Source: an uncultured Clostridia bacterium (GTDB lineage: Bacteria; Bacillota; Clostridia; Oscillospirales; Acutalibacteraceae). From it: a stretch of DNA of 44,868 bases. Both the position numbers and the translations under genes were made by a program. The stretch covers positions 1 through 44,868 of the forward strand of contig CANRAU010000015.1 of assembly GCA_947628665.1 (NCBI GenBank), written 5' to 3'. The notes beneath the pieces are model-generated. The model did not search any database. It saw only the letters and a program-made list of their open reading frames with translations, and was not told the DNA's origin. Below, one piece after another: positions 12,602-38,441 of this stretch (positions within the stretch are counted from its first letter, which is position 1; each line of letters opens with the position of its first letter).

Positions 12602-14475
12602 CAGAGCGAAACCCCGAACAAATGCTGGCGCAGGCTTTGAACCACGCCGCACCCGACGATCTCCATACGGTTCTCTCCCAATGCGGGGCGAAGAAAGGAA
12701 ATGTGATCGACATGACAGAAGCAACCGAAAGAAGCACAAATAAGAAAAAATGGACGCTTGGGCTGATCGCCGCTGTTTTGGCGCTCGTCCTTTTGGGCGG
12801 CGCAGGCGGTATCTTTTACCATCAGTCCTATGCCGTCGCGAGCGTAGTCTCTTTAGACGTCAACCCCAGCATTGAACTGCGGGCAAACCGAAATGAAAAG
12901 GTTCTGTCCTGCGCGGCCATGAACGACGAAGCCGCCGCTCTCCTTGCGGACATGAACGGCGGGGCGGATCTCAAAGGCACAGAGCTGGATGTGGCTGTGA
13001 ACGCCATTGTCGGTTCCCTGCTGCGCAACGGTTATTTGGACGGTCTTTCCTCCGCCATTTTGCTCTCCGTTGAGGACGATGACCAAAATCGGGCTGTCCG
13101 CATTCAGGAAGAACTGGTCGCTATAGTGGACAGCGTTCTGAAAGACTCCTCGAACGAAGCGTCTGTCCTCAGCCAAAGTCTGACGGCCGATTCGGAATTG
13201 AAAGCCCGTGCCAAGGAAAGCAACATCTCCTCCGGCAAAGCGTATTTGATCGATCAGATCATCGCCAAGAACGGCAATTTGGAATTTGACCGTCTTGCCA
13301 CCCTCTCCGTCAAGGAACTGCGCGACCTGCTTAAGGCGGGCGCACCCGGGATGCCCATCGGGATAGAGGCCGCAAAACAGGCGGCTTTGGAATACGCGGG
13401 CGTCAAAGGGAACAACGCCGTGACCGCCGACGTGGACGCGGAGCTGGATGACCCCGCACCGCACTATGACGTTGATCTGTATCTTTCCGGAAATGAATAT
13501 GAGTACCATATAAACGCTTATACAGGTGAAGTCCTCAGCGGGCAGAAAAATATTTTGAGCGTAAAACCGACCCCCGACACGCAGACGCCCTCCGGCGGCA
13601 ATATCGGCACGCAGACACCCTCCGGCGGCAATACCGGCACGCAGACACCCTCTGGCGGCAATACCGGCAACAGCGGCAATACAGGCAATACAGGCAGCGC
13701 CGGCAACAAAACGACCGACATCGGGGCTTCCGCCGCAAAAGCCGCCGCACTGAAGCACGCGGGCTTACGCGAAAATCAAGTCACCAACCTGCGCGTCAAA
13801 AAGGATTACGACGACGGGCATATTGAATATGACGTGGATTTCATCTATAACAACACGGAATATGAATACACCATTCACGGTGTAACGGGCGCGGTGATTG
13901 ATTGTGAGACCGAGCTTATTCACAAAAAGGCTTCCACAGGCAATGGTAATAGCAGTAGCAGCGGAAACAGCGGGAACAGCGGGAACAGCAGCTCCTCGAC
14001 CGACATCGGCGCGGAAGCCGCAAAAGCAGCCGCGTTGAAGCACGCGGGCTTACGCGAAAATCAAGTCACCAACCTGCGCACCAAGAAAGATTATGACGAC
14101 GGGCATATCGAATACGACGTGGATTTCATCTATAACAACACGGAATATGAATACACCATTCACGGTGCAACGGGTATGGTGCTTGACTGTGATACAGAAC
14201 CTGTCCGCGGGCAGTCCTCCTCCGGGAACGGTGGAAATGGTGGAAGCAGCAGCTCCACCACGACCGATGCCGGCGCGGAAGCCGCAAAAGCTGCCGCTCT
14301 GAAGCACGCGGGTTTGACTGCAAGTCAAGTCTCCGGCCTGCGGGTCGAACGCGACTATGAGCGCGGCCGCCTTGTCTATGAGGTTGAGTTCCGTTATGGC
14401 CGTATGGAATATGATTACACCATCGATGCGGCCAACGGGGCAATCCTCGACCACGAGCGGGACTACGACGACTGA
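12598..14475 (+). CDS. RsgI-like membrane anti-sigma protein with four PepSY-like repeats
   Basis: A 625-aa protein translated from GTG, with AAAGGAG upstream. Residues 1-50 are cytoplasmic. A transmembrane helix (52-74, WTLGLIAAVLALVLLGGAGG) follows, then SVVSLDVNPSIEL, a hallmark of RsgI-type anti-sigma factors. Four outside repeats each have an AAK-AALxxAG helix, a YEVDF-like strand and EYEYTIxxxTGxVL, the PepSY/YpeB pattern (about 256-317, 373-440, 463-530, 555-620). They are joined by Gly/Asn/Ser/Thr-rich linkers. Repeats 2 and 3 are nearly identical. The protein probably senses a surface signal and frees the sigma factor. RsgI proteins of cellulolytic clostridia carry carbohydrate-binding domains here; a PepSY array is different. 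Confidence 0.85.
   Translation: MTERNPEQMLAQALNHAAPDDLHTVLSQCGAKKGNVIDMTEATERSTNKKKWTLGLIAAVLALVLLGGAGGIFYHQSYAVASVVSLDVNPSIELRANRNEKVLSCAAMNDEAAALLADMNGGADLKGTELDVAVNAIVGSLLRNGYLDGLSSAILLSVEDDDQNRAVRIQEELVAIVDSVLKDSSNEASVLSQSLTADSELKARAKESNISSGKAYLIDQIIAKNGNLEFDRLATLSVKELRDLLKAGAPGMPIGIEAAKQAALEYAGVKGNNAVTADVDAELDDPAPHYDVDLYLSGNEYEYHINAYTGEVLSGQKNILSVKPTPDTQTPSGGNIGTQTPSGGNTGTQTPSGGNTGNSGNTGNTGSAGNKTTDIGASAAKAAALKHAGLRENQVTNLRVKKDYDDGHIEYDVDFIYNNTEYEYTIHGVTGAVIDCETELIHKKASTGNGNSSSSGNSGNSGNSSSSTDIGAEAAKAAALKHAGLRENQVTNLRTKKDYDDGHIEYDVDFIYNNTEYEYTIHGATGMVLDCDTEPVRGQSSSGNGGNGGSSSSTTTDAGAEAAKAAALKHAGLTASQVSGLRVERDYERGRLVYEVEFRYGRMEYDYTIDAANGAILDHERDYDD
13570..13670 (+). repeat. Tandem 30 bp coding repeat
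   Basis: Three copies of a 30 bp unit encode TQTPSGGN[IT]G in the linker before the second PepSY repeat. It is a low-complexity linker prone to copy-number change, not a CRISPR array. Confidence 0.8.
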
Positions 14476-22676: not shown

Positions 22677-24161
22677 TCAGTTCAACTGCGCTCTCAGTTC
22701 TTCAAAACTTTTCAATGCGCTCTGAAGATTTTCTATGATTCCGTCGGCGAGTTCTTCCGGGGAAGGGAGGTTGTCCAGATCGGCGAGGGATTTATCCTTG
22801 ATCCAGAAAATATCCAGGCTTGTTTTATCCCGTGCTTTGATCTCATCTGCGCTGAATTTGCGCCACCGACCGTCCGGATTGCTGGGCGACCATGTTTCTT
22901 TTCGCTCGCGGCGGTTCTCCGGGTGATAACAGCGGATAAAGTCCTCTAAATCCGTGTCAGTCATGGGGTGTTGCTTCAATGTGAAATGAATATTCGTGCG
23001 AAAATCATAAATCCAGATTTCTTTTGTCTGCTCCTCTGCGGAGGCGGGGCGCTTATCGAAAAAGATCACATTCGCCTTGACACCCGGCTTATAAAAGATC
23101 CCGGTAGGCAGGCGGAGGATCGTGTGCAGATCGGTAGTTTCCAGCAACTTCTTGCGGACAGTCTCGCCTGCGCCGCCCTCAAAAAGAACGTTGTCCGGCA
23201 CCACGACAGCGGCTTTGCCCGTCGCCTTCAGGATGGTATTGATGTGCTGGACGAAGTTGAGTTGCTTGTTGGAACTGGTCGTCCAAAAATCCTGCCGGTT
23301 GTAGACTAAATCCTCGTCCTCCTGTTCGCCTTCCTCGTTGGTGAAGGTGATGGAGGACTTTTTGCCGAACGGCGGGTTTGTCAGCACATAATCCACGCGA
23401 TAGCCGGGGTCGCTCAGCAAAGCGTCGCCCAGCGTGACGGGAACGTTCCCATAGATGTCGCCGATGTTGTGCAGATATAGGTTCATCAACGCCGTTTTGT
23501 AGGTAGCTGGGACGATCTCATTGCCATAGAACGTTTCGTTTTTGAGAAATTCCTTCTGCTCCCGCTCCAGTGTGTAGTTTGCAGGATCGGCAAGGAAAGA
23601 CTGCGCTGCTAGGAAGAAACCGCCGCTTCCGCAGCAAGGATCGGCCACGGTTTTCATGGGTTCGGGACGGATACAAGCTACCATGGCGCGAATCAGCGGG
23701 CGGGGCGTGAAATATTGACCCGCGCCGCTCTTGATGTCCTCGGCGTTCTTTTGCAGCAGCCCCTCGTAAATCTCGCCCTTGACATCTGAGGACATGGATA
23801 CCCATTTCTCCCGGTCGATCATCTGCACGATGCGGTAAAGAATCGCGGCATTGCTGATTTTGTTGACCGCACCCTTGAAGATTTGTCCAAGGATTCCGCC
23901 TTGTTCGCCCAGCGTTTCGAGGATGGTTTTATATTTTTCCTCCAACTCGGCGCCCTTGAGCGCGTTCATGTCCGGCCAGCGGTAGCCCGCAGGAATGCCC
24001 GCGTCCCGCTTGTACGGCGGCCTCGAATACTCGTCCGCCATTTTGAGGAAGATCAGATAGGTAAGCTGTTCCAGATAGTCCCCGTAGGAGACGCCGTTGT
24101 CCCGCAATGGGTTGCACATTCCCCACACGCGGGAAATGATGGAGGAAGTTTGGTCAGGCAT
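22677..24161 (-). CDS. hsdM: Type I restriction-modification methyltransferase subunit
   Basis: A 494-aa N6-adenine methyltransferase. The N-terminal helical domain (LRDNGVSYGDYLEQLTYLIFLKMADE) is followed by YFTPRPLIRAMV, the AdoMet motif DPCCGSGGFFLAA and the catalytic motif NPPF in VLTNPPFGKK. Then come VVPDNVLFEGG and LRLPTGIFYKPGVKANVIFF. It forms an M2S1 enzyme with HsdS and protects the host site. It is the last gene of the operon and overlaps the Mrr-like gene by 8 bases. ATG at 24161 has only a weak GAGAAG SD, in line with coupled translation. Confidence 0.93.
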   Translation of the reverse strand: MPDQTSSIISRVWGMCNPLRDNGVSYGDYLEQLTYLIFLKMADEYSRPPYKRDAGIPAGYRWPDMNALKGAELEEKYKTILETLGEQGGILGQIFKGAVNKISNAAILYRIVQMIDREKWVSMSSDVKGEIYEGLLQKNAEDIKSGAGQYFTPRPLIRAMVACIRPEPMKTVADPCCGSGGFFLAAQSFLADPANYTLEREQKEFLKNETFYGNEIVPATYKTALMNLYLHNIGDIYGNVPVTLGDALLSDPGYRVDYVLTNPPFGKKSSITFTNEEGEQEDEDLVYNRQDFWTTSSNKQLNFVQHINTILKATGKAAVVVPDNVLFEGGAGETVRKKLLETTDLHTILRLPTGIFYKPGVKANVIFFDKRPASAEEQTKEIWIYDFRTNIHFTLKQHPMTDTDLEDFIRCYHPENRRERKETWSPSNPDGRWRKFSADEIKARDKTSLDIFWIKDKSLADLDNLPSPEELADGIIENLQSALKSFEELRAQLN

Positions 24162-24750
24162 GATGTTCTTCTCTCGCTTTCTTTCTGGCAAATATATACA
24201 TCTCTTCTGTTGGATAAATTTCGGAATAGGGGTAGTCAGCAGAGCAATCCCATTCTAAAGCAAAGTATTTGGGAAGATATTTTTCAAATGCAGGTTGAGA
24301 TCTCATCCTATCGAGGTACTCTTTACTCTCTGCCGCAGAATAGTGTTTAATATAGTTATCACATACCTGCCATAAGGCTATTCCATGTTTTTTAGCATAT
24401 AAGGTTGCCCCATTTTGGAAACCAACCGTAGAAATCAGAATTCCCTTCTGCGCCCCAATACTGTGCAATTTTGCATCTAAAGCGGCAACAATTCCCCTTT
24501 CTACGCTGCGGGATTGTTTTTTGCATTCGACAATCACCGTGTTTTTTACGCCGAGTGCAGTATATTCAGCCAATACGTCTATCTGATACGTACCATCATC
24601 TGTGGAAATCTTTTGATTGTGTTTGATTGTAAAGTCGGTTAGATTTTCCCTTTTTGCATATGCTTTTAGAGTTTCCATACAAAAAATCTCAAAATCAATG
24701 GGACCTATCATAGAGTCTAATTCCCGATACGGGTTGACGTCTATTGTCAA
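24154..24750 (-). CDS. Mrr-like PD-(D/E)xK nuclease inside the hsd operon
   Basis: A 198-aa protein. The core reads IGPIDFEIFCMETLKAYAKREN, then DDGTYQIDVLAEY, then NTVIVECKKQSRSVERGIVAALDAKLHSIGAQKGILISTVGF. D-(x)n-E-C-K is the PD-(D/E)xK active site and Q-KGILIST-GF is typical of the restriction endonuclease/Mrr group. It is translationally coupled to hsdS (4-base overlap) and hsdM (8-base overlap), so it belongs to this operon. Mrr-type enzymes usually cut modified DNA; here it may be a companion nuclease. The C-terminal 60 residues show no known domain. Confidence 0.8.
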   Translation of the reverse strand: MTIDVNPYRELDSMIGPIDFEIFCMETLKAYAKRENLTDFTIKHNQKISTDDGTYQIDVLAEYTALGVKNTVIVECKKQSRSVERGIVAALDAKLHSIGAQKGILISTVGFQNGATLYAKKHGIALWQVCDNYIKHYSAAESKEYLDRMRSQPAFEKYLPKYFALEWDCSADYPYSEIYPTEEMYIFARKKAREEHHA

Positions 24751-28963: not shown

Positions 28964-29961
28964 TCAGAGGATATTGATTTCTCTTTCCAATTGAGCAATC
29001 CCTGATAAGATTTCATCAAATTCCGGCTTCTCGCCGAAAATCATATTCTGCATGTGCTCATAGTCATCGCGGAGTTTGGCGATGTTGTATTCCGGCGGCA
29101 TGAGGCGCATAGTGCCTCGCTTGGCAAGATCGTAGTGAGCCCAGGGACAGCGGTAGAACTTGTCCTTAAAAGCGACAACACGGTCGAGCAGATTGTTATT
29201 GGCAAGGGCGCGGTTTTTGACCGGAGATTTTGCCATACAATACAGATCGTAATAGTGCCTTGAATACCGGCTGGGAAGAGTACTGCTTTCCACACGGAAC
29301 GCTTCTCGATGTAGGATTGTGATTTTCTCCCAGAAGGTACGCTCCGGTAAAACCGTCAAAACCTGTGTGGAAGGTTGTTCAAACACTCTTCCGTAATATT
29401 CGGCGGCGTAGGGCGTAATCGTTTGCTTTGCGGCGGGCGTCCACGCGGCGAGCGCGCCAATCTCCAAACGGATTTCCTGAAGGATCGCAGTATCGGAAAA
29501 GCTGTTCGGATACGTAAATTTGACCGTTTGACCGTCGTGCGGATCGATCTCGCATTTGACGGGAAGTGTCAGTTCTTCGGTCAGATCCTTTTGAATTCCG
29601 GCAGAAACGCGTCGCAAAGGAAGGCTTCCGCGCGTTCGTTTGCCTCTTTGTTGAAGGCGTCCTGCTTGGTATTGCTACGCTACTCCCACGGCTCGTCTGT
29701 CCCGTATCCGAGCACCCGCCAATCAAGAATCAGGTCGATGTCTTCCGAAAATCGCTTGATAAGATTGTAAGCCTTTGACAGACTTGTTCCGCCCTTGAAA
29801 GCGAGGCTGTTTTTCCACGCACAACGGTGAAAAAGATAGTCGAGCATGTAGCATACCCAAAAATCCTTTTCAATCACCGCTTCGCTGACGCCCATTTTGG
29901 CGGCGGTATTGCGGAAAAGCGCCTCTCGCTCTTTCGCTTCTATGACAGCGATTTTTCTCAT
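28964..29961 (-). pseudogene. abiEii: AbiEii nucleotidyltransferase toxin, broken
   Basis: The 5' part reads VIEKDFWVCYMLDYLF, LAFKGGTSLSKAYNLIKRFSEDIDLILDW, the G-G-T-S...D-x-D core of AbiEii/DUF1814 nucleotidyltransferases. A TAG at 29680-29682 follows PWE where K is expected. About 30 codons later the frame shifts by one base near the A tract at 29589-29592, and the C-terminal half (RTFWEKITILHREAF, SRHYYDLYCM) continues in the next frame down to 28964. Two independent lesions make it inactive, or one is a sequence error. It lies 4 bp after the intact antitoxin gene. Confidence 0.85.
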
Positions 29962-30619: not shown

Positions 30620-30675
30620 AAAAATCCCTTTAGGGTGATTTTGTAAAAATTCTCATTCCGTTTTTCTGAAATTCT

Positions 30676-30967
30676 CATATCATCAAAATAGCATCAAATT
30701 TGTTTTTGGCGTGCGGTTGACGAATTGAAACGCAGCAACGGCGCGGATTTTCGGGCGATAGATGTTCTCCTATGTTTCACCCACAGTCGCTCCAAAACCG
30801 CGTGCCGGACAACGCCGCCGAGCGCTCCCGGTGGGCGAAACAGCGAGACGGCGTTGGCATAGCGGTCGAAAAAATCGAGGAACAGCGCCGGTAGGCGTCC
30901 GAAGGCTTTTTCGGGCACCGCAAGAGGGGTTGCAAAGCAACTTCAAGTCCTCCTGCCCCTGCCAAAA
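30676..30967 (+). other. att-like scar A derived from tRNA-Trp
   Basis: Order on plus: arm-like repeat TCATCAAAATAGCATCAAA (30680-30698), 91 bp of sequence conserved with scar B, an 18-base copy of the tRNA-Trp anticodon region CTCCAAAACCGCGTGCCG (30790-30807), 134 bp with no match, then 26 bases of the tRNA-Trp T arm and acceptor end (30942-30967, one mismatch). It looks like an integrase attachment site whose halves are separated by the residue of a deleted element. Confidence 0.7.
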
Positions 30968-31002
30968 CCATTCCTGCCACTTCTGCGGCGGGGATGGTTT
31001 TT
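30964..31002 (+). terminator. Hairpin behind scar A
   Basis: AAACCATTCCTGCC pairs with GGCGGGGATGGTTTTT, ending in a T run. Its place after the acceptor end mirrors the terminator of the true tRNA-Trp. Confidence 0.65.
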
Positions 31003-31047
31003 GTTGGTCTTCAGCTTCAACCGGGGGTTTTGTCTTTGCTTAAGGCC

Positions 31048-32241: not shown

Positions 32242-32420
32242 TTCGATTTCTCCTTTTTTGATTTTTCCGATTCGGTCGCAAAGGCGTTATGCGGTTCGCT
32301 TTTCTTTGTTTCCCTCTCGTTTGATTCTGTCATCATTCTATCACACGGGGGTTTGCCGTTTGCAGAATCTGTTTGCAAAACCGATTTGATTGCAAAGGCG
32401 TTATGCGGTTCGCTTCTCAC
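32238..32420 (-). CDS. Leader ORF made of duplicated units, coupled to the NYN gene
   Basis: A 60-aa frame from GTG 32420 with AAGGAAACAAA just upstream. It contains SEPHNAFA twice, because it runs across two copies of a 116 bp repeat, and ends EKSKKEKSK with a stop overlapping the NYN start. It is reachable only from the distal promoter (32451-32479). If transcription starts at the proximal promoter, only an unled ATG remains. It may be a coupling leader or a by-product of the duplication. Confidence 0.35.
   Translation of the reverse strand: MRSEPHNAFAIKSVLQTDSANGKPPCDRMMTESNERETKKSEPHNAFATESEKSKKEKSK
32335..32363 (-). promoter_or_regulatory. Proximal NYN promoter with the shared box
   Basis: Minus strand GCAAAC, 17 bp containing CCCCCGTGTGA, TAGAAT. 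TG before the -10 makes it extended. The -35 is far from TTGACA, which suggests an activator or another sigma factor. Confidence 0.6.
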
Positions 32421-32450: not shown

Positions 32451-32479
32451 ATTGTAACACACGGGGGAGCACCGTTTGC
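32451..32479 (-). promoter_or_regulatory. Distal NYN promoter with the shared box
   Basis: Minus strand GCAAAC, 17 bp containing CCCCCGTGTGT, TACAAT, also with an extended TG. Same layout as the proximal copy and the kinase promoter. Confidence 0.6.
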
Positions 32480-32523
32480 GGAATCTGTTGCTTGTTTTTA
32501 TCTGTTTCCTGAAAGGCTATATC

Positions 32524-32631: not shown

Positions 32632-35600
32632 TTATTTGCGCAGTGCTTTCAGCCTTTCGGCGACCTCCGTTGTTTTGGGGTGATCGTCGCCGAACAATTC
32701 CCGCCGGATCTCCCACGCCGTTTGATAATGATCGGTAGCCGTCGCAAGGTCGTTTGTCTGTTCATATGCTCTGCCTAAACGGAAATCCAGCGCCGCCGTC
32801 ACTCTATCGTGCGGAACATACAGAATCCGCGCCATGTCGAGGGCTTTTTCCAAATGTGCCTTTGCATCGTCATACCTGCCCATCTCCAAGTAGGCCGTTC
32901 CAAGTCTATTGTAGCAAAACAAAACCGTACTGTTGACTGCCTGATTGCCGTATGCTTCTTTGGCACACGCCAGCGCCTGCTCTCCGTGGTCGAGCGCCTC
33001 AGGATAGCGTTTCCATGCAGTATATAATTGGCACAGATCGTAATGCGCGTATGAAATAGCTCCTATCTTGTTTCGCCGCACGCGAAAATCGAGATTTTCA
33101 AGCAACAATTTTTCGGCCAAATCGTAGTTTTTAGCATTGATATATAGAAAGCCAAGTTGCCGCATGCAACTATAATATTGGGGGCTGTCGGCGCCTTTTT
33201 CCTTGGCATAAATTTCCGCCGCCTCTTTCAAAACCGATTCCGCCTCGTCAAATCTTCCGGATAACCAATAGGTGCCGCCGAGGGTTTTCAACGTGACCGC
33301 GTATGAAATGCCGCCCTGTTTTCCCATCTTCGCTCGGATTTCCAGCGCTTTTCGTGCGTGCTCTTCCGCTTGTCTGTATTTCCCGATACCGTTATACAAC
33401 GATGCGAGACGGCGATGTAGGACGGCAACGCTCTCCTCTTCTTCTCCAAACAGTTGTTCTCGAATCAAAAGAGCATTCAGATCACATTCCTCCGCAAACG
33501 ACGGATCTACGTGCAGGCTTGCCTTAGCCGAGGAATCATCGTACAGTTCACCTAAGTGACTATATATATCCGCAGTCCTTCGGCTGATTTTGCCGTAAAG
33601 CTTTATCGCCATATCCAGGGCTTTTTCCAGATATTCCTTTGCTTCGGCAACTTTTCCGGCATCCAAATGTGCATGTCCCAAAAAGATATAAGACTGCATG
33701 ATGGATTTATGGATTGCTCCTTTTCCATATGCCTTTTCCGTAAACTCTATGGACAATTCCCCGTGTTCAATCGCCTTTGCATACAAACCCATGGAACGAT
33801 ACAGAATACATAGCTTCCGATGCACACTTGCAATATCGGCAGGATCTTCCTTCCGGATACGAAATTCCAGCGCTTTAAGCAGCAATTCTTCCGACAAATC
33901 GTATTGATCGGTCAGGGTGTATAAATTGCCAAGTCCTTCCAAACAATCATAATAGGATGAGCTTTCATCACCCTCCGCGTTCAAAAAAACGTTCGACGCT
34001 TCCTGATAAGCCAGCTCTGCGTCCTCATATTTATCCGATGACTTGTAAACGTTTCCAAGTCCTTTTAATGCTAACGCATAGGAAGTGCTGTCTTTTCCTT
34101 TAAGCATGGCAAAAATGTCCAACGCTTTGCGTACATGCTCCTCCGCCTGCTTGTATTTTCCGATATCGTTATAGAGCGATGCTAAATAACGGTGAGACAT
34201 AGCAACGTCCGAGTTTTTTTCCCCGAATATCCGCTCCCGAATCGCCAGTGCTTTCAGGTGGCACGTTTCTTTCAATGCGACATTTATGTATGAGCCAATC
34301 CGAGACGAAAATTTGCGCAGAAAATCGGCGGTGGCGGCGGTATCAACCGCATGCTTGCAGATATTGGCCAAAAGGTCGGTATAAATGGCGAGTAGCTCGT
34401 TTCGCTCCTCATTCGGCATTTCTCCGAGCTTGTGTTCCTCGGAATAGGCAAGCACGTTTTCCGCCATTTTTTTATACGGCTCATCCGCATATTCCACAGT
34501 TCCCGCCACTAAATCCGCGATCACCGGATGCAGCGAGATCCGATCTGCCGATTTATCGTGTCGAATCCATCCTCCCTCCGTCAGGGAGTTGACGGTGTCG
34601 TAATCCGATAGCTCGCACCAATCGTGAAACAGTTCGGCGGATATACCCGCGTGGGAAATCAGCGAAAGGTTTGCAAGAATATATTTCTCGTTTTCGTCCA
34701 GTCTCGAAAGGTCAAACAACATTCGGATATGCTCGTATGCGCTTTGCGCGGAGAGAGTACCGTCTTTTCCGGAGCGCACCTTTTCCTTTCCGCTTTCGCC
34801 GATACCGCCTTCTTTCAGCTTTTCGAGCATCTGTTTCGGCCGGATACGACCCGCCGCCATCTGCTTTGCCAACAGTTCAACGGTCATGGTATGCCCGTCA
34901 AACAGGTCGATCATCTGTTCGACGCAGTCGTTTTCCTCCGCAGTCAGCGGTTTGGTATAATATTGATCAAAGATTTTCCGAACGTCTTTTTCGTCCAATA
35001 ACGTCCCCACGGTGAGCGATGCGTATCCGTATTCCGAAAAATCACGCCTTGTGGTGACCAATATTTTGCAGTTCAGATCCAAAAGCGATTTCAGATCCGG
35101 ATCGCCGGAGCGTTCTAAGTCGCGATCCATATTATCCACGATCAGAAGCGTCCTTTCGTCGCAAAGTTCGCGAAGCTTGTACATCTTTCGGGCATAATAA
35201 TCCTCAAGAGCTTCTTCGTTCCCGCGCTGGAACGAAGAAATCGGAATCCCGACGTCGTCCGTAACAAGCGAGCGTGCGTCGCTGATATACGGTGCGAAAA
35301 GGACCGTGTCGTAGTCCTTCAAATGTTTCAGGGCATAACGCTTTGCAAGCTCACTTTTCCCAATACCGCCGATTCCCGTTAAGAACAGAACGCCGGTTTC
35401 GCAGAGTTTTTCGTGAATTTTTTCCAGTTCTCCGTCACGCCCCACAAAGAACTCCCGCGCCGCCGGAAGGTTGCTTTTCAGATACGGCGTTTCGGGATTC
35501 GATACACGAATCAGCTCGTCTAAACTTGCAATCAGCTCATCTGCCGAAGAATATCTTTTCTCTGCCGATGTGCAGATGGTGCGGCGGAACAAATTGTCTA

Positions 35601-36411
35601 AAAGCGGGAAGATCTTGGGCGATACATCTCCCGAAATTTGAATTTCACGCGGATAGTCTGAAAAGCTGCGGCGTTCCCAGCGCTGAGAATGTCTGCCAAA
35701 CAGTTTGAAAAAAATAATTTCACCAACGGCAAACAAATCCGTCGCCGGGCAAACCGGCTTTTGAAGAATTTGCTCGGGAGCCGCCCAGCTTTGGGTATAG
35801 GAAAGACTTTTGGTGTTTTCCGACCCACAAATCGGCGTTACGCTGTCAAAATCGAACAGCATTACGTCCTCCACGGTTTGCGATTCCGGGCGGACAAATA
35901 TATTGTCCGGTTTGATGTCCAGATGCAGAAAACCCGCCTTGTGGTAGTTGCCCAACACCTGTGTCAAGGTTCGCATACGCCGCATCAGGTCATAGACGGA
36001 GCGCTCGGAAACACCGTCGTAGGTTCGTCCGCTGAAACAGGTCATATCGATATATTTCGTGCCGTTTGCCGAATAATAGCCCTGCACGTTACAGGTATAA
36101 TTCTTTAACTGGACTTCGGATAACCGAATCGCCTTTTGCCGTTCGCAGCCCTCACGGAATCGCTGCAATCCGCGGTCAAACAGATCCTTTTTATCCTCCG
36201 GAACGATCAGTCTGCCCGATTCATCCCTTTGAATATCCATATGCTTGGGATAATATTCTTTAAGCAGATGCTCGGTATTGTCGAAACAGACGGCGCGATA
36301 CACGATGCAGGACGCCCCGCGACCAATCTCCTCTTTCACGGTAAAGTAAACGTCACTTCTTTCCGTGAATACAATGGTGTTGCTGATTTGGTTAAGCGGG
36401 ATTCTTTCCAT
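32632..36411 (-). CDS. Protein kinase-STAND ATPase-TPR fusion
   Basis: 1259 aa from ATG 36411 (GGAGG 9 nt upstream). Residues 20-300 are a Ser/Thr kinase with all key residues: Gly loop EIGRGASCIVYRA, Lys51, HLDIKPDN (163-170), DFD (187-189), APEQ. Residues 320-640 are an NB-ARC-like STAND ATPase: FVGRDGELEKI, P-loop GIGGIGKS (346-353), Walker B LLIVDNMD (421-428), ILVTTRRDF, HTMTVELLAKQM, and LHPVIADLV at the winged helix. From about 690 to the end are a dozen TPRs of the kinesin-light-chain type (LGNVYKSSDKYEDAELAYQEA and so on). There is no membrane helix. STAND proteins oligomerise when the repeats sense a ligand; here the effector would be the kinase. An antiphage or signalling role is inferred from the island context. 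Confidence 0.9.
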   Translation of the reverse strand: MERIPLNQISNTIVFTERSDVYFTVKEEIGRGASCIVYRAVCFDNTEHLLKEYYPKHMDIQRDESGRLIVPEDKKDLFDRGLQRFREGCERQKAIRLSEVQLKNYTCNVQGYYSANGTKYIDMTCFSGRTYDGVSERSVYDLMRRMRTLTQVLGNYHKAGFLHLDIKPDNIFVRPESQTVEDVMLFDFDSVTPICGSENTKSLSYTQSWAAPEQILQKPVCPATDLFAVGEIIFFKLFGRHSQRWERRSFSDYPREIQISGDVSPKIFPLLDNLFRRTICTSAEKRYSSADELIASLDELIRVSNPETPYLKSNLPAAREFFVGRDGELEKIHEKLCETGVLFLTGIGGIGKSELAKRYALKHLKDYDTVLFAPYISDARSLVTDDVGIPISSFQRGNEEALEDYYARKMYKLRELCDERTLLIVDNMDRDLERSGDPDLKSLLDLNCKILVTTRRDFSEYGYASLTVGTLLDEKDVRKIFDQYYTKPLTAEENDCVEQMIDLFDGHTMTVELLAKQMAAGRIRPKQMLEKLKEGGIGESGKEKVRSGKDGTLSAQSAYEHIRMLFDLSRLDENEKYILANLSLISHAGISAELFHDWCELSDYDTVNSLTEGGWIRHDKSADRISLHPVIADLVAGTVEYADEPYKKMAENVLAYSEEHKLGEMPNEERNELLAIYTDLLANICKHAVDTAATADFLRKFSSRIGSYINVALKETCHLKALAIRERIFGEKNSDVAMSHRYLASLYNDIGKYKQAEEHVRKALDIFAMLKGKDSTSYALALKGLGNVYKSSDKYEDAELAYQEASNVFLNAEGDESSSYYDCLEGLGNLYTLTDQYDLSEELLLKALEFRIRKEDPADIASVHRKLCILYRSMGLYAKAIEHGELSIEFTEKAYGKGAIHKSIMQSYIFLGHAHLDAGKVAEAKEYLEKALDMAIKLYGKISRRTADIYSHLGELYDDSSAKASLHVDPSFAEECDLNALLIREQLFGEEEESVAVLHRRLASLYNGIGKYRQAEEHARKALEIRAKMGKQGGISYAVTLKTLGGTYWLSGRFDEAESVLKEAAEIYAKEKGADSPQYYSCMRQLGFLYINAKNYDLAEKLLLENLDFRVRRNKIGAISYAHYDLCQLYTAWKRYPEALDHGEQALACAKEAYGNQAVNSTVLFCYNRLGTAYLEMGRYDDAKAHLEKALDMARILYVPHDRVTAALDFRLGRAYEQTNDLATATDHYQTAWEIRRELFGDDHPKTTEVAERLKALRK

Positions 36412-36434
36412 CTTCTCATTCCTCCTGTGAAGCC

Positions 36435-36463
36435 ATTGTATCACACGGGGCGGTCGCTTTTGC
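36435..36463 (-). promoter_or_regulatory. Kinase-gene promoter with the shared box
   Basis: Minus strand GCAAAA, 17 bp containing CCCCGTGTGA, TACAAT, leaving a leader of about 17 nt that holds AGGAGG. Same box and spacing as the two NYN promoters. Confidence 0.6.
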
Positions 36464-36509
36464 GAAAAGAGTTTGTAAAGCCGGAATATGTGGTCTTCTT
36501 TGTGTTTGC

Positions 36510-37703
36510 TTATTCCTCTGGCTCGTCCGCTTCTTCAAAATCCCGCAGATAATATTCTTCGATCAGATCGTGCAGCGTGTCAAGTGGGTCGGTCGACATC
36601 GCGCAATATCCGAACATACAATCGAAGGGATTGAGCCAGTAAAGCCGACCGTATCCGCAGCGAGCCAGCATTTCGTTTATCTCGTCGGTCAAATCGTCAT
36701 AAATGCCGCTGTTTTCTAATTCTTCCTTGTTATTCAACTTCACCGTGGCTGTGTAATCATAAAATTGCAGCACGATAAGCGCGCGACGAACAACGTCAAA
36801 AGAGGCGATCCCCTTTTCGATCTGCGCAAACTGTTCCTCCTGCGGCCAGTTTTTGCGTATGTATTCCGGAAATCTGGATTTGTTAATGGAGCGGGAATAT
36901 ACCGGCTTCCCGTTTTTCGTTGCCCTCGCATTGTATCCGTATATAACTTGAAGCAGGTTGCCGACGCTTTCAACCTGTTGAAAATCATACCGATCCGGTT
37001 CTATTGCCAAATCGCGATCCACTTCTTGCTGTGCAATCTCTTTGCAGTGCTCCAACAGGTTCGCAAATTCCTTTTGCGCGGTTTGATTCTTCTTCGCAAA
37101 ACCTGCGCGGTTTTCACAAATGTAGGCAACAAGCTCGTCTTTGTCTTTGATTTCACAAAGGCGATCGCGGATCTGCGCGGTTAGCTCGTCCGCATCGGGA
37201 TTATCCGAAATTTCATCCGGAATATTTTTAATGATCTCTTCGGCGTCTTTATATTTCAAGCCGTTCCTCATACAGAAAAAATAGACCGCTTCTTCTATAT
37301 TCTTATGGTAAAACGGACGCTCCAAATACGCTTTCAGGAAAAATTCCTTCGTCTGTTTTTCGTTCATATGCAGTGCAAAGCATAAACCGTAAATGTTGTT
37401 TCTACCCTTTTGATCCGATTTTGGCATACCCTTATTCAACCAGTTTGAGAGTGTTTGCCGACTTATTCCGACGCCTTCCTCCTTGCACCGATCTAAAACA
37501 AACTTTACCAGTAGGTCCGTGTCTTCTTTTTTGCCCTCGTAACCGCAACACTCACAAGCCATTTTGTGCACATAGCGGACAAAGTTTTTCAAAGGATCGA
37601 ATTTCTCCATCTTTTCCCTGCCCGGTAGCTCTTCCTTTTCAAAATCATATGCAAAAAATTCATCTTCAACCATTTGCGTCAAGTCGTTATTTGAATACTC
37701 CAA
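36510..37703 (-). CDS. Large HTH protein paired with the kinase-STAND gene
   Basis: 397 aa from TTG 37703, chosen because GGAGG lies 9 nt upstream; the longer frame has no SD. Residues 45-60 have Cys-rich MACECCGYEG. Residues about 78-93, VGISRQTLSNWLNKG, look like a helix-turn-helix, followed by NNIYGLCFALHMNEKQTKEFFLKAYLERPFYHKN, a helical arrangement resembling domains found beside HTH modules. The rest is acidic and helical with a possible coiled coil (200-270); the C-terminus is acidic (YLRDFEEADEPEE). No catalytic motif was seen. It could regulate the shared promoter box or the palindrome in its own promoter. I do not recognise the family. Confidence 0.7.
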   Translation of the reverse strand: MEYSNNDLTQMVEDEFFAYDFEKEELPGREKMEKFDPLKNFVRYVHKMACECCGYEGKKEDTDLLVKFVLDRCKEEGVGISRQTLSNWLNKGMPKSDQKGRNNIYGLCFALHMNEKQTKEFFLKAYLERPFYHKNIEEAVYFFCMRNGLKYKDAEEIIKNIPDEISDNPDADELTAQIRDRLCEIKDKDELVAYICENRAGFAKKNQTAQKEFANLLEHCKEIAQQEVDRDLAIEPDRYDFQQVESVGNLLQVIYGYNARATKNGKPVYSRSINKSRFPEYIRKNWPQEEQFAQIEKGIASFDVVRRALIVLQFYDYTATVKLNNKEELENSGIYDDLTDEINEMLARCGYGRLYWLNPFDCMFGYCAMSTDPLDTLHDLIEEYYLRDFEEADEPEE

Positions 37704-37810: not shown

Positions 37811-38056
37811 TTTGAAGATTATCCGTTTTCCTCCAAGGTACCGCCACGGTGGGGATTGATGGTGTTTTCCACTTCGGTATAATATTTTTGATTGCTGGCA
37901 GTTCTCGTATAACCACTATTTCATCCGCACAACACGACATTTGTTTGCCTTTATAATGATGAGATCGATACTGAATAAATACCGATCCTAATAAAATACG
38001 ATAAAAAGTTTCATTTTTCTAAAACATTATCGACTTTTCGCCTATTTAAAATTTTT
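37811..38056. other. Non-coding stretch upstream of the HTH gene
   Basis: AT-rich and without a gene I can support. A 33-codon stop-to-stop stretch on the minus strand (containing YYTEVENTINPHRGGTLEENG-like sequence, about 37815-37920) could be a gene fragment but matches nothing I know. Confidence 0.4.
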
Positions 38057-38277
38057 CATATCATCAAAATAGCATCAAACCGGCGGTAGCGTGCGTTAAT
38101 AACCAAAAACTCCGCAACGGTGCGGATTTTGGGGTGATTAGATGTTCCCTAATATTTCTCCTACAGTCGCTCCAAAACCGCGTGCAGTGGGGCGCGGGTT
38201 GCCGGTGGCAACCTCTGCGCAGGCAGAAGCGCCGACCAAGCCGGCAGGTGAAAACAAGTCCTTCTGCCCCTGTCAAA
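38057..38277 (+). other. att-like scar B derived from tRNA-Trp
   Basis: Same order as scar A: arm-like repeat TCATCAAAATAGCATCAAA (38061-38079), 90 bp conserved with scar A, core CTCCAAAACCGCGTGC (38170-38185), 69 bp without a match, then 23 bases of the tRNA-Trp 3' end (38255-38277, one mismatch). It marks the right end of the island. Confidence 0.7.
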
Positions 38278-38312
38278 TCTATCCCTGCCGCTTTTGCGGC
38301 GGGGACAGATTT
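38275..38312 (+). terminator. Hairpin behind scar B
   Basis: AAATCTATCCCTGCCGC pairs with GCGGCGGGGACAGATTT over a TTTT loop. It is equivalent to the hairpins behind tRNA-Trp and scar A. Confidence 0.6.
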
Positions 38313-38441
38313 CGTTATGGGTAAAAGACGAAGCCTAGGCACGCGGTCTATAGGTGCATCCGTCGATTTTTCGGCTTGATCGGAGGTCTCTTTGTCCGCT
38401 GTCTGACCATCGTCTGGCTTTTTCTTCTTTTCTTTGTTCAT
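38282..38441 (-). pseudogene. Start of a small hydrophilic gene running into scar B
   Basis: AAGGAGAC precedes ATG 38441. The first 40 residues are highly charged (NKEKKKKPDDGQTADKETSDQ), after which the frame enters the hairpin and the tRNA-like scar and has no protein-like character. Most likely the 3' part was replaced at the integration junction. A real short protein cannot be excluded. Confidence 0.4.

Follow-up and report, generated by a model that had tools for sequence, protein, structure and literature searches.

Among described pathways, AfsK/AfsR of Streptomyces is one in which a Ser/Thr kinase, a nucleotide-binding oligomerisation domain (NOD), tetratricopeptide repeats (TPRs) and a helix-turn-helix (HTH) regulator belong together (PMC10936776, PMC1262709). 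AfsR carries an HTH of the SARP type, the NOD and the TPRs on one chain with the kinase separate, and the AfsR box overlaps the -35 of the promoter, an arrangement that engages sigma (PMC10936776). Here we describe a locus of an uncultured Clostridia bacterium (Acutalibacteraceae; assembly GCA_947628665.1, contig CANRAU010000015.1; the whole stretch of 44,868 nucleotides analysed is called the window) in which, by contrast, kinase, NOD of the STAND type and TPRs share a single chain, with the XRE-type HTH in a protein of its own, and in which a putative element again lies over the -35, here of promoter patterns preceding the kinase gene and a gene for an NYN-domain protein. These components probably form a self-contained switch: the STAND/TPR part would sense, the kinase would act on the HTH protein and the HTH protein would set transcription of the kinase and of a cargo gene.

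Avs (AVAST) systems share with the large protein a STAND ATPase (NB-ARC match and conserved Walker A lysine here), C-terminal repeats and an N-terminal enzyme. The effectors of Avs are nucleases, proteases and others, whereas the N-terminus here is a Pkinase, and no family named Avs is among the best 25 of the 33 PADLOC families matching the protein. The C-terminal repeats of Avs recognise a conserved phage protein; at that place the large protein carries its TPR array. To our knowledge Avs systems have neither a conserved XRE partner gene nor shared cargo promoters. PD-T4-6 is a stand-alone kinase; its best model spans residues 118-316 of 1270 only, the STAND part, TPRs and HTH partner being additional here. 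In HipBA the kinase is accompanied by an HTH partner, and here too an HTH gene is adjacent to and upstream of the kinase gene. We know of no cargo element in HipBA or in the HipA-related system DS-6. Both encode a kinase and a small partner alongside one another, but the kinase is of HipA type with no STAND or TPR part (for DS-6, PMC13092281), whereas that of the window is a Pkinase (PF00069), and none of its 24 Pfam matches is to a HipA family. Ser/Thr/Tyr kinase domains have also been described inside NTP-dependent conflict systems (Kaur et al., 2020; PMC7159879). Those are actinobacterial, rarely from chloroflexi, with mostly disrupted catalytic residues, in contrast to the mainly clostridial and intact proteins described below; an active kinase does occur in a different subsystem of that study, around GAP1-N2. 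In Caulobacter the XRE-family regulator CdxB directly controls lypABC, a STAND-like (CARD-NLR-like) system, although its components are of peptidase type, CdxB is a repressor and the accessible part of the source contains no Ser/Thr kinase (PMC13236601). An N-terminal XRE-type HTH is also found in the RRNPP receptors ComR, PrgX and Rgg, in which a TPR-like peptide-binding domain makes up the C-terminal part. No description of the kinase-HTH pair was found among the open-access papers listed by our searches.

The two proteins and their pairing

The kinase open reading frame (ORF; 32632-36444, minus strand) contains an ATG at 36411 preceded by AGGAGG, and Pfam recognises Pkinase (1.8e-15), NB-ARC (1.6e-6) and TPR_12 (2.7e-66) in its product. 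This is in agreement with an earlier model-made reading of the sequence alone (the sequence-only reading), which had described a kinase-STAND-TPR chain of 1259 amino acids with intact residues. The kinase motifs are K51, HLDIKPDN (D165, N170) and DFD (D187), and those of the STAND part are Walker A GIGGIGKS from residue 346 and Walker B LLIVD from 422. D165, N170, D187 and the Walker A lysine are present in 65/65 aligned proteins, window included, and K51 in 64, with a gap in the remaining one; H628, at the MHD-like place of the STAND part, is histidine in 59/59 aligned letters. Identity to the three nearest relatives is 49-61% in the kinase and STAND parts and 25-30% after residue 650, and a sensor would be expected to show such faster divergence, seen here in the window's clade. 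Across the nine other pairs examined the contrast was weaker, absent or reversed. A long internal duplication of the TPRs was considered and BLAST gave no confirmation of it.

The HTH gene begins with TTG at 37703, with GGAGGG upstream. No Pfam or NCBIfam family matches its product above the cut-off, and PADLOC gives nothing at 0.01, which bears out the earlier view that this 397-residue neighbour shows no known family. Structure prediction had also been suggested, and the AlphaFold model (mean predicted local distance difference test score, pLDDT, 84.9) shows an XRE-type HTH at residues 36-129 and a helical C-terminal part. Modelled alone, the C-terminal part gave no clear HTH; Foldseek found nothing at E<=0.001 among PDB or viral models, and the family profile matched no PDB chain below E 0.37. 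An origin by tandem duplication is only half supported, the two halves fitting the profile of the short HTH family described below (98.1% and 93.7%) but failing to match one another (1.6%). In alignments Thr9 and Thr175 are near-invariant in the long HTH family (47/48 each) and one threonine is invariant in the short family (32/32), and these are candidate phosphorylation sites.

The recurrence of the two genes together, amid differing neighbours, supports them as a genuine unit. Searches with the HTH protein found matches in 8/150 genomes of the family, and with its profile in 35/391 genomes of the class, the window's genome being counted in each case; among the other seven genomes of the family, a kinase gene is adjacent in five, and in two the HTH gene lies at the end of a contig. 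The reverse search used a kinase-STAND query built from five HTH-linked proteins. The best 80 of 89 relatives in genomes represent 78 distinct loci, which with one viral contig and two plasmid loci made 81 fetched loci. Kinase and STAND profiles match one ORF in 64 of these, and 17 were dropped (L117 and L143, where separate ORFs encode the kinase and STAND parts, L157, with no ORF, and 14 lacking a match to one of the profiles), with an HTH gene near seven of the 17 and none near ten. The HTH gene is present in 58/64 loci and in 57/59 with at least 1300 nt upstream, counts that include close relatives and rest on an HTH model built partly from these same loci; the two misses, L139 and L151, are on contigs that stop 158 and 2 nt past the kinase ORF. 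Setting aside L091, L092, L111 and L149, which were likely reached first through their HTH gene, leaves 53/55, and an earlier HTH model had found the gene within three ORFs in 54/62 loci. Placement is upstream on the same strand in 52 of the 58 (47 with a gap of less than 200 nt, five 417-2063 nt away), upstream on the opposite strand in three and downstream on the same strand in three. No further neighbour family repeats in more than 6/64 loci. The sequence-only reading had looked for a pair recurring beside differing neighbours, which is what was found; a kinase gene standing mostly alone in housekeeping contexts, or an HTH gene not conserved beside it, which it had named as telling against its case, did not occur. 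In a subgroup of three loci (L132, L141, L154) the kinase-STAND proteins are of about 1470 amino acids and a longer HTH gene (484-593 amino acids) lies downstream rather than upstream.

Ruminococcus albus 7 and Butyrivibrio proteoclasticus B316 carry the pair on plasmids; five plasmid records match the kinase-STAND query, two of them over most of its length. The patchy distribution and plasmid carriage suggest a dispensable, mobile function. Given one contig with the pair (L168) among 109 pattern-matching stretches in IMG/VR, and an HTH match in one short 'Bacteriophage sp.' record, we see no sign of the pair as a general phage-borne system.

The association with kinases extends to a wider family, which the earlier reading had not included. 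Most matches to the HTH profile in the class are short proteins of about 145 amino acids that match the HTH region, and a Ser/Thr kinase lies within two genes of the short HTH gene in 27/31 loci, a count that omits L054 and L065 and in which some loci come from one shared genome. Kinases make up 26/61 ORFs at a distance of one gene, 3/60 at two and 0/243 at three or more. These kinases gave no STAND match to the profile used; that of L059 carries leucine-rich repeats (LRRs). No kinase is near the short HTH genes of L069, L071, L074 and L079. Long HTH relatives are also paired with kinase-NACHT proteins, in L052 (9.1e-9) and weakly in L015 (0.009), and the longer relative in L054 adjoins a PP2C gene. 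An unassigned clostridial HTH family thereby gains its usual partner, the Ser/Thr kinases. In L060 (6245-10990) one short HTH gene stands amid three kinase ORFs, and LRR proteins of the BspA-like or DUF285 type adjoin three HTH or HTH-kinase loci (L125 13723-15579; L150 13619-15394; L051 8336-9235).

Promoter patterns and a proposed switch

A second addition to the earlier reading is a promoter pattern common to the kinase and NYN genes (Table 1). In the window's clade it takes approximately the form TTTTRCAAA-N15-TGNTANNAT, in which TG precedes the -10 and the -35 is covered by an A-rich, partly palindromic element; judged by this pattern, the kinase gene seems to be served by its own promoter, with such an element. 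The two copies upstream of the NYN gene are a tandem duplication with a spacing of 114-116 nt. Across the window's genome TTYNRCAAA-N18-TANAAT has three matches, all at this locus (kinase once, NYN twice), the reversed control having one; for the TG-bearing form with one mismatch allowed there are nine genome-wide (control two), and the exact three are those at the locus. The relative G256 has 3/3 matches at the equivalent three places, and in G133 one of two exact matches is at the kinase (control zero in each). A looser pattern matched 8 times across the window and L090-L094 (L090 and L094 having none). Other fetched loci, 1.84 Mb in all, gave 21 matches, a number that takes in the three of L093.

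Fourteen stretches from the window, L090, L091, L092 and L093, chosen by pattern or by eye, can be aligned; two from L091 are a poor fit at the -10, and one from L090 overlaps the first NYN codons as listed. They precede the kinase in the window, L091, L092 and L093, the NYN gene in the window, L092 and L090 (two each), and other downstream ORFs in L091 and L093. The NYN genes that follow the kinase in L090 and L092 are 52% and 47% identical to that of the window. Labels given here and below as lipoprotein, membrane protein, glycine-rich, PP2C-like (L177) or methyltransferase and Vsr-like (L176) were read from the letters, with no search behind them. Downstream of the kinase in L091 (14079-14384) are small ORFs reading as glycine-rich and hydrophobic, preceded by promoter-like copies, and in L093 a thymidylate-synthase-like ORF (13290-14060; 1.3e-8) lies 7.6 kb downstream of the kinase behind the same promoter pattern. 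Further loci have DUF6591, NERD, BspA-like, Schlafen/AlbA-like or metabolic genes after the kinase.

Table 1. Features of the kinase-HTH locus in the window
Feature	Position	Strand	Basis
Ser/Thr kinase-STAND (NB-ARC)-TPR protein, 1259 aa	32632..36411	(-)	ORF, Pfam, alignment
Protein kinase domain, ~residues 1-320 (K51, D165, N170, D187)	35452..36411	(-)	Pfam, alignment
STAND NTPase part, ~residues 321-650	34462..35451	(-)	Pfam, alignment
TPR array, C-terminal, ~residues 690-1259	32635..34344	(-)	Pfam
XRE-type HTH partner, 397 aa (TTG start)	36510..37703	(-)	ORF, AlphaFold model, alignment
Putative promoter pattern TTTCGCAAA-N18-TACAAT, TG before -10, in HTH-kinase gap	36435..36467	(-)	pattern search, alignment
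Putative promoter pattern, copy closer to NYN gene	32335..32367	(-)	pattern search, alignment
Putative promoter pattern, second copy upstream of NYN gene	32451..32483	(-)	pattern search, alignment
NYN-domain gene, 183 aa	31690..32241	(-)	Pfam, homologues after kinase in L090 and L092

What the sequence shows is that the two genes are conserved together, that their active sites are intact and that the promoter pattern is exclusive in this genome to the kinase and NYN genes. In the proposed switch, the large protein would sense a cue through its TPR array and STAND ATPase, and its N-terminal Ser/Thr kinase would then become active. The kinase would act on its dedicated XRE-type HTH protein, most likely at an invariant threonine, and the HTH protein would bind the element over the -35 of promoters with TG before the -10, setting transcription of the kinase gene and of the cargo gene, here an NYN RNase. 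We infer which way the signal runs, that the HTH protein is phosphorylated and binds the element, that it activates and does not repress, and what purpose is served, be it defence or another stress response. Phosphorylation of AfsR barely altered activation in vitro (PMC10936776), which is a caution for a model of this kind.

A second pattern, AAAWCC-N20-TANNAT, bears on how far such regulation may extend. It occurs in 16 of the 37 HTH-kinase gaps that are longer than 25 nt and shorter than 200 nt, against a shuffle mean of 0.01 and maximum of 1, a figure whose apparent strength is inflated by close relatives among the 37 gaps; the 18 other spacings combined gave 5/37 (shuffle mean 0.37, maximum 3). 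It also stands ahead of genes reading as a membrane protein in L111 and a lipoprotein in L116. Besides the inflation just mentioned, several observations weigh against the proposed switch. AAAWCC-N20 is missing from 21/37 gaps, that of the window included, and elsewhere in the loci its excess is modest (22 compared with a control-spacing mean of 11.75, six of the 22 lying inside HTH genes). This is why a cargo regulon is well supported, from sequence patterns, for the window's clade only. The other exact match of G133 sits on another contig, the 38-nt HTH-kinase gap of L090 is without the clade promoter pattern, and an NYN gene is found in 2/64 related loci and in none of the other 62. The invariant threonine could be explained as a helix cap. 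Finally, the long HTH gene of L051 has no adjoining kinase, and in the window's own genome a short-family HTH gene (L176 3782-5976; G000:C7) follows genes for a putative cytosine methyltransferase and a Vsr-like endonuclease with no kinase, so that the HTH family is not bound to kinases without exception.

The switch would make the output of a STAND protein readable as promoter activity. If it is real, a simple reporter could serve the search for the STAND ligand, and bacterial STAND signalling would gain a transcriptional branch with swappable effectors. A bolder version, which we put forward tentatively as the less probable outcome, is a modular, transcription-coupled immune pathway in which the STAND receptor kinase would sense infection and phosphorylate the XRE factor, which would then switch on the receptor and an exchangeable cargo (in the window the NYN RNase, and at other loci membrane proteins, glycine-rich membrane peptides or the product of a thymidylate-synthase-like gene), by analogy with the receptor kinases that drive induced immunity in eukaryotes.

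Defence context and alternative explanations

The sequence-only reading had placed the pair inside a defence island, and its interpretation as a whole is partly supported. Genes for type I restriction, AbiE and NYN do lie on the same side of the pair in the window, as it had stated, though AbiEii (28964-29961, minus strand) is split over two frames, with ORFs of 93 and 217 amino acids matching opposite ends of one AbiEii model, and is either a broken gene or an assembly error. Within the type I system, HsdM and HsdS are separated by a gene (24154-24750, minus strand) whose product has an Mrr-type restriction endonuclease domain. The island setting holds in the window, but as a rule it is not evident in the scanned neighbours of the relatives; the R. 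albus plasmid copy does adjoin brxL, ThiF/Mov34 and PIN-Phd genes. The neighbour scans took in 121 of 323 listed proteins, from ORFs of 150-900 amino acids in 10 of the 28 long loci, and the best 25 of 143 and of 117 families; with PADLOC at 1e-15 no family among the best 25 of 143 was found on more than two of the 121, there being no matched control. An antiphage function may be at best an even prospect, since the adjoining restriction and AbiE genes, the R. albus plasmid context, the plasmid-borne and patchy carriage and the RNase-type cargo speak for it, and the lack of a prominent defence family in the scanned part of the 10 loci and the envelope-like nature of several cargos speak against it.

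Part of this evidence could be accommodated by an Avs-like antiphage sensor, in which the STAND-TPR part would recognise a phage protein, the kinase would be the direct effector, halting the cell by phosphorylating essential host targets, and the HTH protein would only silence the operon. Its order of N-terminal enzyme, STAND and TPR array would fit, as would the match of PD-T4-6 kinase models to the kinase domain (best 4.8e-18), the restriction-modification and AbiE genes of the window, the brxL and ThiF/Mov34 neighbours on the R. albus plasmid and the faster C-terminal divergence. We nevertheless regard it as unlikely, given that no defence family is prominent in the scanned part of the 10 loci (best-listed families, no control), that genes reading as lipoproteins, membrane proteins or BspA-like LRR proteins lie downstream in several loci, and that kinases beside short HTH genes lack a STAND match.

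Those same downstream genes, some reading as DUF6591, would suit signalling of the AfsK/AfsR type outside any conflict, with nutrient or envelope cues controlling surface proteins and the NYN gene as an accidental rider. AfsR likewise ties HTH, NOD and TPR to a Ser/Thr kinase and has its box over the -35 (PMC10936776). This is likewise unlikely, as the patchy occurrence (8/150 family genomes) and plasmid carriage suggest a dispensable, mobile function and the doubled pattern before NYN in the window, L090 and L092 speaks against accident. A HipBA-like toxin-antitoxin system, with the kinase as toxin, the HTH protein as antitoxin and autorepressor and the STAND part as trigger, is less likely still: the upstream HTH gene, the putative promoter element between the genes and the patchy, partly plasmid-borne distribution would agree with it, but the kinase is of Pkinase type with no HipA match, and a simple autorepressor needs neither the seemingly separate kinase promoter nor the element before NYN. 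The proposed switch remains our preferred reading.

A comparison for an empty site with G098, the sole genome of the same genus in the sample, gave two short DNA matches only, about 136 kb apart. Imperfect direct repeats at 30629-31005 and 38050-38316 (82-93% in blocks), some 7.4 kb apart, bracket the segment with the NYN, kinase and HTH genes.
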